A DNA stretch of 64,000 nucleotides. Origin: an uncultured Treponema sp. (GTDB taxonomy: Bacteria; Spirochaetota; Spirochaetia; Treponematales; Treponemataceae). Below, in pieces: positions 26,569 to 34,644 of the stretch. The translations under genes were made by a program, and so were the position numbers. Below the pieces are notes generated by a model. That model was not told the DNA's origin. It saw only the letters and a program-made list of their open reading frames with translations, and searched no databases. Each line of letters opens with the position of its first letter. Positions within the stretch are counted from its first letter, which is position 1. The DNA lies in NCBI GenBank assembly GCA_946410085.1, contig CAMJZA010000005.1, positions 1 to 64,000 of the forward strand, in the 5' to 3' direction.

Positions 26569-27975
26569 ATGAAGATACGCACACAGCTGCAGCTGCTGAT
26601 TCTGTTCATGGTACTCGTCCCCCTCCTCTGCGTCATCTCAATGCCCCTGTTCCAGTACATCACCTCTCCCCAGCGCTACCTGCTGGCGGGCTACAAGCTG
26701 ATCCGCAACCTGGAAGACCTGGATATTTCCGGGGACGACATGGACAAGCTCGGCGAGCAGCTCAAGCGGATTCCCCCGAACATGGAGACGATGGTCTACT
26801 ACAATGCAGGCGTCCTGATTTCTTCCATACCCGAAATCAAGGCGGGTTCGTCAATGACGCCGATGGACCTCTTTGACTTCATACGGACGACGAGCGACAA
26901 CTACAACTACCAGCTCCACTCCCTGGGCATGCGGCACCCTACCCGCCGCCTGGAAGAAGCAGTCCTCACGCCCCAGACCATCCTCATCGTCTGCCGGGCA
27001 AAGGCCCGCCGGACCATGACGATACGCGAATCGGGCAAGTGGCAGTTCCGCCTCCTCATCTTCCCGGGCCTCGCAATCCTCATCGCCTTCGAAATCCTCT
27101 GCGCAATCTTCCTGATAAACCTCTCCAAGACCATCACCACATCCATCACGATCCTCGAGGAAACGACGCAGAAAATCGCCCGGGGCGCCCTGGACACGAA
27201 AATCGTTACCCCCCGCACGGGACGGAATGCGAACGAGATAACCTCCCTCTCCGAAAGCCTTGAGCAGATGCGGGCTTCCCTCAAGGACGAGCAGGACCGG
27301 CGCACCAAGTTCATCATGGGAATCAGCCACGACCTGAGGACCCCGGTCGCCCTCATCAAGGGCTATACCGAAGCCATCACCGACGGTGTCGTAACCGACA
27401 TGGACAAGGTGCAGAACTCCCTCTCGATCATCCACACCAAGGCAGACCAGCTTGAAGGGATGATAAATGACCTGATCAATTACGTGAAGCTGAACAATAC
27501 GGACTGGCGGCAGAGCCTGGAACTCGTCACGCTCAAGCCCCTCCTCGACGAGTTTGCCGGCAGCGCGGAAGCAACGTCGGAAGTCTACCGGCGGACGATA
27601 CGGACCGTCATAGACGTAAAGCCCGAAACACGGATAAAGATGGACAGGAAGCTCATGCAGCGCGCGCTTGAGAACCTCTACTCAAACGCCCTCCGCTACA
27701 CGAAGGACGGCGACAGCATCAGCATAGAAGCACGGGAAACGGAGCAGACCATCACCGTCAGCATTGCGGACTCGGGAATCGGCATCAGCAAAAAGGACCT
27801 TTCAAAAATCTGGGACACCTTTTACCGGGGTACCAACTCCCGGCGCGAGAGCGGCATGGGTATAGGACTGTCCGTTGTCCGCACGATCATCGACACCCAC
27901 GGCTGGAACATCAGCGTGGATTCCACGCTCGGCGAAGGCACGACCTTTACCATCACGATACCGAAAAAGAACTGA
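26569..27975 (+). CDS. Sensor histidine kinase
   Basis: 468 residues. Membrane helices lie at about 11-34 and 158-190, bracketing a roughly 120-residue periplasmic sensor with no recognisable fold. HAMP follows at about 185-240. The H box MGISHDLRTPVALIKGY lies near residue 252. The ATP-binding domain carries the N box (LENLYSNALRY), G1 (IADSGIGI), the F box (WDTFYRG) and G2 (GMGIGLSVV). It is cotranscribed with the OmpR-type regulator just upstream. The signal is unknown. Confidence 0.93.
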   Translation: MKIRTQLQLLILFMVLVPLLCVISMPLFQYITSPQRYLLAGYKLIRNLEDLDISGDDMDKLGEQLKRIPPNMETMVYYNAGVLISSIPEIKAGSSMTPMDLFDFIRTTSDNYNYQLHSLGMRHPTRRLEEAVLTPQTILIVCRAKARRTMTIRESGKWQFRLLIFPGLAILIAFEILCAIFLINLSKTITTSITILEETTQKIARGALDTKIVTPRTGRNANEITSLSESLEQMRASLKDEQDRRTKFIMGISHDLRTPVALIKGYTEAITDGVVTDMDKVQNSLSIIHTKADQLEGMINDLINYVKLNNTDWRQSLELVTLKPLLDEFAGSAEATSEVYRRTIRTVIDVKPETRIKMDRKLMQRALENLYSNALRYTKDGDSISIEARETEQTITVSIADSGIGISKKDLSKIWDTFYRGTNSRRESGMGIGLSVVRTIIDTHGWNISVDSTLGEGTTFTITIPKKN

Positions 27976-28097
27976 AAGGGCTGCCGGGCCGCACATGCCC
28001 CGCACCGGACGCACGCGCCCGACGGCAACCGCCTGACCGGCCCGGTCTGCCCCGCAAGCAACTTTTGAGACAGGCACTAGCACAAAATCCCGTTTTC

Positions 28098-28106
28098 TGC
28101 TATGAT
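28098..28106 (+). promoter_or_regulatory. Extended -10 promoter upstream of the carB leader peptide
   Basis: TGC-TATGAT (28098-28106), 11 bases before the leader ATG at 28118. No good -35 is seen, as expected for extended -10 promoters. Confidence 0.5.
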
Positions 28107-28117
28107 ATGTTTTCAGT

Positions 28118-28198
28118 ATGAAGAACGGGCTGACAACATGCAGGAGCAATCTCACCATGCGGCTGCCCGGTTTGAATTTCTATTGTTACTGTATTTGA
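28118..28198 (+). CDS. Predicted 26-residue leader peptide of carB
   Basis: ATG at 28118 to TGA at 28196-28198, too short for ordinary gene finding. Its last codons (TTG AAT TTC TAT TGT TAC TGT ATT TGA) form a U-rich mRNA tract, and the stop lies one base before a terminator hairpin. This layout matches leader-peptide attenuators, in particular the pyrBI type, where ribosome closeness to a polymerase pausing at U-rich sequence disrupts the terminator when UTP is low. There are no runs of one regulatory amino acid, which argues against starvation sensing of a particular tRNA. Translation is not proven. Confidence 0.5.
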   Translation: MKNGLTTCRSNLTMRLPGLNFYCYCI

Positions 28199-28199
28199 C

Positions 28200-28233
28200 G
28201 GCGAGTTTCTTTTGAGAACTCGCCTTTTTTTTT
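28200..28233 (+). terminator. Attenuator terminator before carB
   Basis: GGCGAGTT (28200-28207) pairs with AACTCGCC (28217-28224), followed by nine T. It lies between a promoter with a short open frame and the carB ribosome site AAGGAG, so it must be read through for carB expression. Confidence 0.8.
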
Positions 28234-28247
28234 AAGGAGCAAGAAAG

Positions 28248-31200
28248 ATGAAACGGACGGACATCAAGAAAGTTATGATTATCGGCTCGGGACCAATCGT
28301 CATCGGCCAGGCCTGTGAGTTTGACTATTCGGGCACCCAGGCCTGCAAGGCCCTGCGCGAACAGGGCTATAAAATCGTTTTGGTAAACTCAAACCCCGCG
28401 ACAATCATGACCGACCCCGTGATGGCCGACGCAACCTACATTGAGCCGCTCAACGTGGAGCGCCTGTCACAGATCATCGAAAAGGAACGGCCCGACGCCC
28501 TCCTGCCGAACCTCGGCGGTCAGACGGGCCTGAACATGGCGATGGAACTGAACAAGGCGGGCATCCTTGAAAAGTACGGGGTCAAGGTCATCGGCGTCAA
28601 CCTCGACGCGATTGAGCGCGGCGAGGACCGCGAAATCTTCAAGGAAACGATGAAAAAGCTCGGCATCGCAACCCCCAAGTCGGACATCTGCCACACGGTC
28701 GAAGGTGCAGAGAAAATCGCAGCGGAAATCGGCTTCCCGATCGTCGTCCGTCCCGCCTATACGATGGGAGGCCAGGGCGGCGGCTTCTGCTATAACGTGG
28801 AGGAACTGCGGACCATCGTCAGCAACGGACTGGACCTTTCGATTACCCACCAGTGCCTTATCGAGCAGTCAATCCTGGGATGGGAGGAGCTTGAAGTTGA
28901 AGTCGTGCGCGATGCCAAGAACCAGATGGTCGCCATCTGCTTCATCGAAAACATCGATGCGGTCGGCGTCCACACCGGAGACTCCTTCTGTTCCGCCCCC
29001 TTCCTCACGATACAGCCGGAACTCGAAGCGCGGCTCAAGGAGATGGCATTCAAGATCGTTGAGTCCATCGGCGTCATCGGCGGCACAAACGTCCAGTTTG
29101 CCCACAACCCCAAGACCGGCGAAGTCGTCATCATCGAAATCAACCCCCGGACGAGCCGTTCGTCCGCACTCGCTTCAAAGGCGACAGGCTTCCCCATCGC
29201 GCTCATCTCGGCAAAACTGGCGAGCGGCCTCACGCTCGACGAGATTCCCTACTGGCGCGACGGCACGCTCGACAAATACACGCCGGGCGGCGCCCCCGAC
29301 GGCGACTACGTTGTCCTCAAGTTTGCCCGCTGGGCATTCGAGAAATTCCGCGGTGTCGAAGACTCGCTCGGCACCTCGATGAAGGCCGTCGGCGAGGTCA
29401 TGGCAATCGGCAAGACCTTCAAGGAAACCTTCCAGAAGGCAATCCGCGGCCTGGAAAACGGCAGGAGCGGCCTGGGCTTTGCCAAGGACTTTAACAAGAA
29501 GTCCGCCGAAGAGCTGTGCGAGATGCTCAAGACCGCTTCGAGCGAGCGCTACTTCCAGCTGTACGAGGCCATCCGCAAGGGCGTCCCGCTCGAAAAACTC
29601 CACGCCATCACCTACGTCAAGATGTACTTCCTTGAGCAGATGAAGGAACTCGTTGACCTTGAGGAAGAGCTGCTCAAGACCCCCGGCCGGGTCCCCGAAG
29701 GCAAGCTGCTCATACAGGCAAAGAAGGACGGTTTTTCCGACCGCTATCTTTCAAAGATCCTGAAGGTGAGCGAAAAGGACATCAGGAACCGGCGCAGGGA
29801 ACTGGGCATAAAAGAAGCATGGCTCGCCGTTCCCGTCAGCGGCGTCAAGAACGCGAACTACTACTATTCAACCTACAATGCAGCGGACAGGAGCGTGGCG
29901 ACCGACAACAGGAAGAAGGTCATGATTCTGGGCGGCGGTCCCAACAGGATCGGTCAGGGCATTGAGTTTGACTACTGCTGCTGCCATGCGGCGATGCAGC
30001 TCAAGGAACTGGGCTACGAGACGATCATCGTCAACTGCAACCCGGAGACGGTTTCGACAGACTACGACACGTCGGACAAGCTCTACTTTGAGCCGGTCAC
30101 GACCGAAGACGTCCTGCAGATTTACGAGAAGGAAAAGCCCTTCGGCGTCATCGTCCAGTTCGGCGGGCAGACCCCGCTCAACATTGCGCGCGAGCTGCAG
30201 GAAAACGGCGTGAACATCCTGGGAACATCGATTGACTCGATTGACATTGCCGAGGACCGCGACCTCTTCCGCCACATGATGGAAAAGCTCGAAATCCCCA
30301 TGCCGGAAAGCGGCATGGCAATCAACTTTGAGGAAGCAAAGGCCTGTGCGGACAAGATCGGCTACCCGATCATGATCCGCCCCTCCTTCGTCCTGGGCGG
30401 ACGCGGCATGGAAGTCATCTACGACGAAAGCACCCTGCGCGAATACGTGGAAAAGGCAGTCGGCGTGACGCCGGACCGGCCGCTCCTGATTGACCGCTTC
30501 CTGAAGAACGCGCTTGAATGCGAGGCTGACGCCCTTGCCGACTGCCGGGCAACGAGCAGCGATTCCGAAACGACGTACACAACCCATGTCTACATTCCCG
30601 CCGTCATGGAGCACGTGGAACTTGCCGGCATTCACTCGGGGGACTCAGCCTGCGTCATTCCGCCGGTTTCCATACCGGCAGGCAACCTTGCGACGATCAA
30701 GGAATACACGCGCAAAATCGCAGAAGCACTCCACGTGTGCGGACTCATGAACATGCAGTACGCAATCGAAGACGGCAAGGTCTACGTCATCGAAGCAAAT
30801 CCGCGCGCAAGCCGCACCGTTCCGCTCGTCTCGAAGGTCTGCGACACGCAGATGGCCCGCCTTGCAACCCGCATGATGCTCGGCGAGTCCCTTGAGTCCC
30901 TCGGCCTCAAGGACAAGACGATACCCTACTACGGCGCAAAGGAGGCGGTCCTGCCTTGGGCACGATTCCCCGGCGTTGACCCGATCCTCGGACCGGAAAT
31001 GCGTTCCACCGGAGAAGTCCTGGGCCTTGCCGAAAGCTTCCCCCTCGCCTTCTACAAGGCGCAGGAAGCGGCCGGTTCGGAACTGCCCCACGCGCCCGCC
31101 GCCTGGGAAAACAAGAAGGTGCTGATCAGCCTGAGCAACAAGGACAGCCAGCGTGACCAGGTCCTGACGATCGGAAAAACACTGAAGGAACTCGGCTTTA

Positions 31201-31532
31201 CCCTCGTCGGAACGCAGGGCACCGCCGACTTCTTCAATGACAACGGCATCAAGTGCGAACTCGTAAACAAGATCGGCGGCGGCCGGCCCGACGTCGTTGA
31301 CCTGATCATGAACAAGGAAGTCTGCCTCGTCATCAACACGCCCAAGGCAAAGCGGAACTATCAGGAAGACCGGAAGACAATCCGCAAGGCCTGCCTGAAG
31401 TACAAGGTTTCCTACATCACGACGCTCGCCGGCGCACTCGCCGCCGTCAAGGGCATTCAGTCCGTCAAGAACGGCATGGGAGGAGAAGGCGGCGTCCGCT
31501 CACTGCAGGAGTACCACAGCCTGATAAAATAG
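28248..31532 (+). CDS. carB: Carbamoyl-phosphate synthase large subunit
   Basis: 1094 residues, normal length. It makes carbamoyl phosphate from bicarbonate, ATP and ammonia delivered by CarA. Two homologous synthetase halves each carry an ATP-grasp domain: KVMIIGSGPIVIGQACEFDYSG opens the first and KVMILGGGPNRIGQGIEFDYC, near residue 560, opens the second. The C-terminal MGS-like allosteric domain (GFTLVGTQGTADFF) is present. No carA lies beside it. Regulation is probably by the leader attenuator just upstream. The last 15 codons are duplicated in diverged form at 31596-31640. pyrF lies two genes downstream, consistent with pyrimidine synthesis. Confidence 0.96.
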   Translation: MKRTDIKKVMIIGSGPIVIGQACEFDYSGTQACKALREQGYKIVLVNSNPATIMTDPVMADATYIEPLNVERLSQIIEKERPDALLPNLGGQTGLNMAMELNKAGILEKYGVKVIGVNLDAIERGEDREIFKETMKKLGIATPKSDICHTVEGAEKIAAEIGFPIVVRPAYTMGGQGGGFCYNVEELRTIVSNGLDLSITHQCLIEQSILGWEELEVEVVRDAKNQMVAICFIENIDAVGVHTGDSFCSAPFLTIQPELEARLKEMAFKIVESIGVIGGTNVQFAHNPKTGEVVIIEINPRTSRSSALASKATGFPIALISAKLASGLTLDEIPYWRDGTLDKYTPGGAPDGDYVVLKFARWAFEKFRGVEDSLGTSMKAVGEVMAIGKTFKETFQKAIRGLENGRSGLGFAKDFNKKSAEELCEMLKTASSERYFQLYEAIRKGVPLEKLHAITYVKMYFLEQMKELVDLEEELLKTPGRVPEGKLLIQAKKDGFSDRYLSKILKVSEKDIRNRRRELGIKEAWLAVPVSGVKNANYYYSTYNAADRSVATDNRKKVMILGGGPNRIGQGIEFDYCCCHAAMQLKELGYETIIVNCNPETVSTDYDTSDKLYFEPVTTEDVLQIYEKEKPFGVIVQFGGQTPLNIARELQENGVNILGTSIDSIDIAEDRDLFRHMMEKLEIPMPESGMAINFEEAKACADKIGYPIMIRPSFVLGGRGMEVIYDESTLREYVEKAVGVTPDRPLLIDRFLKNALECEADALADCRATSSDSETTYTTHVYIPAVMEHVELAGIHSGDSACVIPPVSIPAGNLATIKEYTRKIAEALHVCGLMNMQYAIEDGKVYVIEANPRASRTVPLVSKVCDTQMARLATRMMLGESLESLGLKDKTIPYYGAKEAVLPWARFPGVDPILGPEMRSTGEVLGLAESFPLAFYKAQEAAGSELPHAPAAWENKKVLISLSNKDSQRDQVLTIGKTLKELGFTLVGTQGTADFFNDNGIKCELVNKIGGGRPDVVDLIMNKEVCLVINTPKAKRNYQEDRKTIRKACLKYKVSYITTLAGALAAVKGIQSVKNGMGGEGGVRSLQEYHSLIK

Positions 31533-33609: not shown

Positions 33610-33696
33610 AGGCAGGAGGCCGCACGTGCGTTGCGGCCCCGCAGCTGAACGTTGCAACTGCAACAGGAAGATATTCAGGAAACTCAGGAAACCACT

Positions 33697-34644
33697 ATGG
33701 AACATTGCATGGACAGGCTGCGCTCGCTCGCAGCAAAATACGGCCCCCTCTGCGTGGGGCTCGATACAGATCCCTCCTATCTGCCCGCAGCGGTTGTAAA
33801 GGACTTTTCCTCCCCCGCACAGGCAGTACTCGCCTACAATACGGAAATCATCGCACGCATCAAGGCAGACGGAAGTGCCTGCTGCTGCAAGGTACAGGCC
33901 GCCTACTACGAGGCAATGGGCGTGGAAGGCATGCAGGTCTATGCCCGGACGCTCAAGGCCGTGCGCGAGTCGGGACTCGTCTGCATTTCCGACGTAAAGC
34001 GGGGCGACATTGCCGCGTCCGCCACGGCATACGCACGGGCACACTTCAGCGGGGACTTTGAAACCGACATCATCACCGTAAATCCCTACATGGGATTTGA
34101 CACGGTAAAGGCCTTCACGGACTTCTGCATGAAAGAAGGAAAGGGAATCTTCGTCCTGCTCAGGACAAGCAACCCCGGCATGTGCGACATAGAGCAGCAG
34201 GAGCTCAAGGCGGGCGGCCGCGTTCTGGACAGGGTTGCCGCCGAGCTGAACAGGATTGCAAAGGAAAGCAGGCCCACCTTCCCCGGCCAGACCTGTTCCC
34301 CGGTCGGCGCAGTCGTGGGCTGTACGGAAGAAAGCGATGCCGCCGCCCTCCGCGCCCTGTGCCCGGAAGTCTTTTTCCTCATTCCCGGTTACGGTGCGCA
34401 GGGAGGAGCAGCCTCCATTGCCCGCACGCTGCTCGGCACGGCACAGGCCGGCAGCACGGCCGCACCAGCAGGTCCTGCCGCCCCGATGGGCACGGTCAAT
34501 TCCTCGCGGGGCATTCTGTGCGCATGGAAAAAAGACGCAGCCTGTCAGGAAAAAGAAAAGGCCGGAACGCTGACGCTGGCCGACATCGCTGACTGTGCGG
34601 CACAGGCATCGATTGCCTCCAAAAAGGACCTGCTCGCCCTGTAA
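33697..34644 (+). CDS. pyrF: Orotidine 5'-phosphate decarboxylase (long type)
   Basis: 315 residues from the ATG at 33697, preceded by AGGAA. It converts OMP to UMP, the last step of UMP synthesis. CVGLDTDPSYLP opens the barrel, and ISDVKRGDIAASATAYA contains the catalytic Asp-Lys-Asp cluster. VNPYMGFDTVKAF and FLIPGYGAQGG are the type-2 PyrF signatures. The C-terminal third carries an Ala/Gly/Pro-rich loop. It lies 87 bases after ettA and shares the pyrimidine pathway with carB upstream, though the gap after carB suggests separate promoters. Confidence 0.93.
   Translation: MEHCMDRLRSLAAKYGPLCVGLDTDPSYLPAAVVKDFSSPAQAVLAYNTEIIARIKADGSACCCKVQAAYYEAMGVEGMQVYARTLKAVRESGLVCISDVKRGDIAASATAYARAHFSGDFETDIITVNPYMGFDTVKAFTDFCMKEGKGIFVLLRTSNPGMCDIEQQELKAGGRVLDRVAAELNRIAKESRPTFPGQTCSPVGAVVGCTEESDAAALRALCPEVFFLIPGYGAQGGAASIARTLLGTAQAGSTAAPAGPAAPMGTVNSSRGILCAWKKDAACQEKEKAGTLTLADIADCAAQASIASKKDLLAL

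Follow-up and report, generated by a model that had tools for sequence, protein, structure and literature searches.

A candidate pyrBI-like leader-peptide attenuator in front of carB in a genus of spirochaetes

How is carB controlled in this spirochaete, and to which signal would that control respond? The window (the whole 64-kb stretch of DNA that was analysed, part of G000:C5) holds a carB gene encoding a complete carbamoyl-phosphate synthase large chain of 1094 aa with the Pfam CPSase large-chain domains, and between positions 28077 and 28248 there follow in order a -35-like element, an extended -10 site, a leader ATG, 26 codons, a stop codon, a hairpin, T9, AAGGAG and carB (Table 1). A preliminary description of this DNA, made from the letters alone, had proposed an extended -10 promoter, a 26-codon frame, a stop one base before a strong terminator and a carB ribosome site. 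Each of these parts was present in the sequence, with 1 nt separating the leader TGA (28196-28198) from the terminator stem (28200-28224). The extended -10 site of the proposed promoter stood, but a -35-like CTAGCA at 28077 puts the beginning of the promoter farther 5'.

Table 1. Features of the carB leader region in window coordinates.
Feature	Position	Strand	Particulars	Basis
Sigma-70-type promoter	28077..28106	+	-35-like CTAGCA 28077-28082; TG 28098-28099; -10 TATGAT 28101-28106	Sequence
Predicted transcription start region	28113..28117	+	~3-5 nt 5' UTR, Shine-Dalgarno-free	Prediction from -10-to-ATG spacer
Leader ORF, 26 codons, MKNGLTTCRSNLTMRLPGLNFYCYCI	28118..28198	+	ATG 28118; stop TGA 28196-28198	
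Codon 12, CTC (Leu)	28151..28153	+		Near-invariance across genus
Last seven codons, U-rich; proposed site of UTP-sensitive RNA polymerase pausing	28175..28195	+		T content, silent-site T
Candidate long-range pairing sequestering leader start, 5' arm	28114..28118	+	CAGTA	Pairing z, covariation
Candidate start-codon pairing, 3' arm	28187..28191	+	TACTG	Pairing z, covariation
Intrinsic terminator (putative attenuator)	28200..28233	+	9-pair stem 28200-28224; T9 28225-28233	
carB Shine-Dalgarno site	28234..28239	+	AAGGAG	Sequence
carB, putative controlled gene	28248..31532	+		Pfam CPSase_L_D1/D2/D3 and MGS

We examined the distribution of this arrangement using a profile-free layout detector, which asks for a -10 site followed after 8-14 nt by an ATG that opens an ORF of 12-38 codons, and for a stop lying -12 to +8 nt from a strong terminator. 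It returned one match, the carB leader site, on the two strands of the 64-kb window, and no match when a further 198 kb taken from the genus and its relatives was scanned. Among the distinct upstream regions of close-type carB genes in the genus it matched 87 of 103, compared with 0/103 reverse complements and 0/102 unrelated stretches, and the attenuator layout is confirmed as far from chance. A profile search placed the element in 93 of the same 103 regions, and L204, L223 and L231 also carry it although the profile placed no leader there. A carB match was detected in 184 of the 196 genus genomes searched, about half of the carB-bearing genomes having the close type and the remainder a more distant paralogue. 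Many of these genomes are fragmented and are probably metagenome assemblies. The leader counts given below come from related species and are not independent, so that P values are nominal, although the differences are so large that the conclusions on conservation should be robust. When the detector was loosened and run on 92 sequences from order-level relatives, from paralogues and from carB genes further removed, it matched 10, of which L105 is a genus member and L095 is a second carB-type gene (carB2, see below); most of the others had no U-rich end.

A few genomes have lost the element, which counts against a pyrBI-type UTP response. The carB of L001 (91% identical) is directly preceded by the same promoter with the attenuator absent, and a promoter abuts carB without an attenuator in L171 and L173, and apparently in L220 and L236, while in L168, L183 and L193 the DNA just 5' of carB is of another kind and consists partly of repeats. 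Separately, we observed repeat-like, often GC-rich insertions between the terminator and the carB ribosome site in L114, L121, L128, L137, L141 and others, and in L127 an insertion near the carB start that apparently duplicates this start. The same promoter or the entire attenuator was also found duplicated elsewhere, in L143 (G067:C27) and L142 (G055:C1:122579); in L143 the promoter leads straight into an ORF which, judged by eye, resembles ribulose-phosphate epimerase. In L002, a Fibrobacter-labelled MAG, a possible ORF of ~66 codons runs across a terminator-like hairpin before a 76%-identical carB, and this would be pyrBI-like if real.

The preliminary description had named lack of conservation of the open frame as grounds for rejection. 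In a set of 90 usable leaders, with ORFs of 13-37 codons (mostly 23-24), the leader frame was open in all 90 while the other two frames were open in 23 and 8. In 88/90 the distance from stop to terminator stem was between -12 and +8 nt, where 8.5 were expected from shuffles, with a median of -6.5 nt from stop end to stem start, and this position is held although ORF length varies across the whole range; both the frame and the stop at the terminator are thus conserved across ~90 species. Pairing in the terminator stem is kept among relatives through base-pair replacement at all eight tabulated positions. Because the stop codon lies beside the hairpin, a ribosome finishing the leader would cover the hairpin 5' arm. 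The encoded peptide is less constant. A consensus, MKTE.CF..xILK....VHTIFI, recurs in the main group, but the leader peptides diverge in length and sequence, with a third-position excess of ~1.75-fold and 740 non-synonymous vs 166 synonymous codon changes; since the peptide is weakly constrained, it appears to be the act of translation that counts, and not the peptide made. The leader of L135 counts against pyrBI-type UTP control, as a frameshift carries its ORF past the terminator.

The leader end had also been described as U-rich, and this holds in the window despite the GC-rich genome, with five of the seven NNY codons there ending in T compared with 45 of 295 in carB (binomial P ~0.001). 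Over the 90 leaders the T fraction was 0.56 in the last 21 nt vs 0.30 in the rest of the leader, and T ended 91% of NNY codons among the last seven, 75% of those earlier in the leader and 40% of those in carB genes. The stretch upstream of the terminator therefore appears to have been selected as nucleotides, beyond the amino acids that it encodes. A U-rich pause region is also a feature of the pyrBI leader.

At its other end, the leader ORF starts too close to the promoter for a ribosome-binding site to fit. The distance from the -10 hexamer to the leader ATG is 11 nt in the window and in 68 of the 90 leaders, and as the ATG is so close the leader mRNA would be nearly leaderless; from this fixed spacing and a predicted 5' UTR of 2-6 nt we infer near-leaderless initiation. 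The full-length carB of L001 and the carB2 genes of G000, G065, G060, G207 and G090 begin at the same ATG position behind similar promoters, which makes the leader ATG a plausible working start. Of 98 genus genomes, 26 contain the promoter pattern CTAGNAYAA-N8-TTTNTGATA, most of them a single time, and almost every copy stands before carB; the backward control of this pattern gave one match in the 98. We considered the CTAG box as an operator, but it is probably just a variant -35, other species having TTG-containing hexamers there. The start region may also pair with the leader end, with a genus-wide mean z of -1.67 compared with 0.30 for a middle-of-leader control (both vs shuffles), although in the window itself start-codon pairing is weak (z -1.0). 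ATGGA:TCCAT covariation in this pairing gave a Fisher P of 0.0003 with relatedness ignored, and sequestration of the leader start by the leader end is possible. We set aside a small hairpin (CAGT-ATGAAA-ACTG) that would hold the start codon in its loop, since it reflects mostly sequence conservation with little covariation.

We then considered the pathway that carB serves. A pyrB-like match was present in 24/24 genomes searched, 23 of them over the cut-off. Six genomes (G007, G010, G013, G049, G057, G198) have pyrB with no carA found, and their carB may possibly be an ammonia-dependent, stand-alone carbamoyl-phosphate synthase; in G007, G010 and G013 carB2 was not found either, so that with pyrB present carB is probably the sole feeder of the pyrimidine route there. 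Two observations count against a UTP response. Ornithine carbamoyltransferase-like genes are also present (as weaker second matches), so carB could serve arginine too, and an attenuator was absent before pyrB in the nine upstream regions examined. In the window, pyrF (orotidine-5'-phosphate decarboxylase, PF00215) lies at 33652-34644, 2 kb downstream of carB and past an ABC-F-like gene, and the layout detector found no leader attenuator at it.

The stop geometry, the silent-site U, the lack of PyrR or a known riboswitch (below) and the pyrimidine-pathway target together favour UTP sensing, and we consider that carB is probably controlled according to UTP by a pyrBI-like transcription attenuator. 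This rests on sequence and comparison, namely the promoter, the open frame, the stop-terminator geometry, silent-site U, terminator compensation and the genus-wide distribution, from which we infer the start site, leader translation, pausing, the UTP signal and the direction of regulation. The preliminary description had interpreted the element in the same way, and the conserved frame, silent-site U and pyrBI-like stop-terminator distance support that interpretation. Transcription would start 3-5 nt before the leader ATG, and a ribosome would load on the near-leaderless end and trail RNA polymerase. With UTP plentiful, polymerase would pass quickly through the U-rich last codons and the ribosome would lag, so that the hairpin at 28200-28224 would fold and transcription would stop. 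With UTP scarce, polymerase would pause in the U-rich stretch and the ribosome would catch up to the stop beside the stem, where it would cover the hairpin 5' arm and let polymerase read into carB, giving more carbamoyl phosphate for pyrimidines.

A plain pyrBI model would give no reason to expect one feature of the leaders, and this counts against that reading. An in-frame CTC occurs in 77/90 leaders, at codon 12 in 74 and shifted in three, and in the 23-24-codon group codon 12 is CTC in 55/59 with no synonymous codon used, whereas CTC makes up ~17% of Leu codons in carB genes; the codons flanking it vary. A more elaborate version of the UTP attenuator would make use of it, in which the near-leaderless start, codon 12 and start-codon re-pairing together time a race, and in which two carbamoyl-phosphate synthase paralogues would be concerned. 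Here CTC would be an almost invariant slow point delaying the first ribosome, the start codon would re-pair with the leader end once the U-rich tract is made, and to open the gate a ribosome would have to load while polymerase is still short of the U tract. We offer this tentatively, as a doubtful elaboration; if true, it would be a refinement that adds to the pyrBI principle an inbuilt clock allowing a single chance.

The same elements could instead serve a translation-coupled attenuator that senses a cue other than UTP, such as the rate of general translation or that of leaderless initiation. The terminator would then be blocked by any ribosome at the stop, and U-richness would slow polymerase constitutively. 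The stop-terminator geometry suffices for such behaviour, and the fixed-spacing, near-leaderless start and invariant CTC could tune ribosome arrival, but selection for silent-site U at the ORF end is left unaccounted for, as is the presence of the layout on carB genes and its absence from the other 198 kb scanned, and we regard this alternative as unlikely.

Sensing of one particular amino acid or of a nascent peptide, through Leu codon 12 or through an Arg-type arrest peptide like fungal CPA1 leaders, would make sense of the nearly invariant CTC and of the consensus peptide recurring in the main group. The preliminary description had stated that the leader has no run of Arg or other regulatory codons, and this was borne out; across the leaders there is no codon run for a regulating amino acid and no sensor-like amino acid excess, Arg being 1.4% of residues in the 90 leaders. 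The divergence of the peptide also speaks against such a sensor, and the leader stop is too near the terminator for an amino-acid attenuator. Attenuation by Arg is ruled out by codon content and geometry. Sensing of tRNA-Leu through CTC was likewise rejected, as this genome has a tRNA-Leu(GAG) gene whose product is expected to read CTT as well as CTC; its charging would not exclude CTT, and the absence of CTT would be left unaccounted for. We therefore consider a specific amino-acid or peptide sensor very unlikely.

Still less probable is an attenuator that senses through RNA or protein, such as a PyrR site or riboswitch, with the ORF incidental. Some conserved pairing at the start codon would fit it, but the leader frame is conserved far above the other frames, and in the window Rfam at gathering thresholds gave no riboswitch or T-box, a single tRNA being the sole match, which leaves the riboswitch without support. 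PyrR (NF003549) was over the cut-off in 0/21 genomes, G000 included, and PyrR-dependent attenuation was rejected. Finally, the hairpin could serve to end transcription of the upstream gene, with the ORF there by chance, as suggested by a + strand histidine kinase ending at 27975. This reading is effectively refuted, as a promoter intervenes and in 17 relatives without a kinase homologue upstream, where the nearest upstream ORFs are often on the opposite strand, the element yet stays with carB.

The same layout was also found before carB2 in three species, at L095/L303 (G016), L319 (G048) and L333 (G153), where the leader ORFs end at the terminator and are fairly U-rich (MKNAGYKTEIVMCIFPRVLFLN, MKTKLCKNLITNDLNLSAHTITICKSYN and MKEQGVQEMITHIFCCSYFIF, respectively). 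The G048 leader resembles the carB leader while those of G016 and G153 look different, so that both capture and independent origin are possible. Other carB2 genes, in L098/L342 (G008), L242 (G001) and L322/L323 (G009, G194), have a strong terminator hairpin just ~10 nt past the predicted transcription start, and they lack a leader ORF that opens with ATG and ends at this hairpin. Pairing of GUC(G), at their 5' end, with (C)GAC in the terminator 5' arm could form a mini-antiterminator, and carB2 would then be under a distinct, possibly start-site-dependent control. Furthermore, the carB2 ORF of L241 (5224-9528 of G000:C30; 1434 aa) joins a CPSase large chain to a diaminopimelate epimerase domain (PF01678), and open frames of like length occur in many genus members.

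If the pyrBI-type reading is true, UTP sensing through coupled transcription and translation extends to spirochaetes, and the spirochaete ribosome can keep close enough behind polymerase to govern termination; coupling has been little studied in this phylum. The ~90 natural leaders (13-37 codons), the natural losses and the second paralogue would form a ready-made mutational series with which to probe stop-to-hairpin distance, silent-site U and one unexplained codon. In the open-licence literature we found no report of leader-peptide UTP attenuation in spirochaetes, in agreement with the earlier statement that no such control had been described there.

Among known systems, the trp, his and leu attenuators share a leader ORF and an intrinsic terminator with the carB element, but they use codon runs, competing hairpins and a leader stop more than 20 bp from the terminator (PMC4824070 for the distance in amino-acid attenuators), whereas the spirochaete stop adjoins the stem and there is no run. 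The P1 promoter of E. coli carAB serves the same enzyme and is pyrimidine-responsive, but through DNA-binding factors and UTP-dependent reiterative initiation, and attenuation is reported as uninvolved in its arginine control (PMC6245113).

By gene, the closest known analogue is carAB of Pseudomonas aeruginosa, a close one that we compare by a later citation and with geometry aside. Its transcript is reportedly leaderless, to go by the title of Kwon et al. 1994 ('no untranslated region exists'). It resembles the spirochaete element in having a car leader peptide and may do so in its message, for which a near-leaderless spacing is predicted in the spirochaete, and it differs in being a gammaproteobacterial carA-carB-greA operon that is also arginine-controlled, while the spirochaete carB stands alone. 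As far as that later source describes it, a leader peptide is encoded from the car promoter region and pyrimidine control is possibly by attenuation (PMC4997734).

In pyrBI of E. coli and Salmonella the terminator lies within the leader gene (pyrL) and is blocked by the advancing ribosome (PMC4824070), and its suppression needs a closely coupled ribosome (PMC4824070, PMC5021804). The shared features are a translated, U-rich leader (with translation predicted in the spirochaete), an intrinsic terminator that a ribosome can block and a pyrimidine gene downstream. In the spirochaete the target is carB, the ORF is shorter (mostly 23-24 codons vs a 135-bp leader gene), the stop is usually just before the stem where that of pyrBI is beyond it, and the leader has a predicted near-leaderless start and the invariant CTC. 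The two belong to different phyla, and the likeness is one of layout, without a demonstrated sequence relation. The novelty would lie in the phylum, in a carB target that stands alone and in the conserved extras, while the principle itself is already known from pyrBI.
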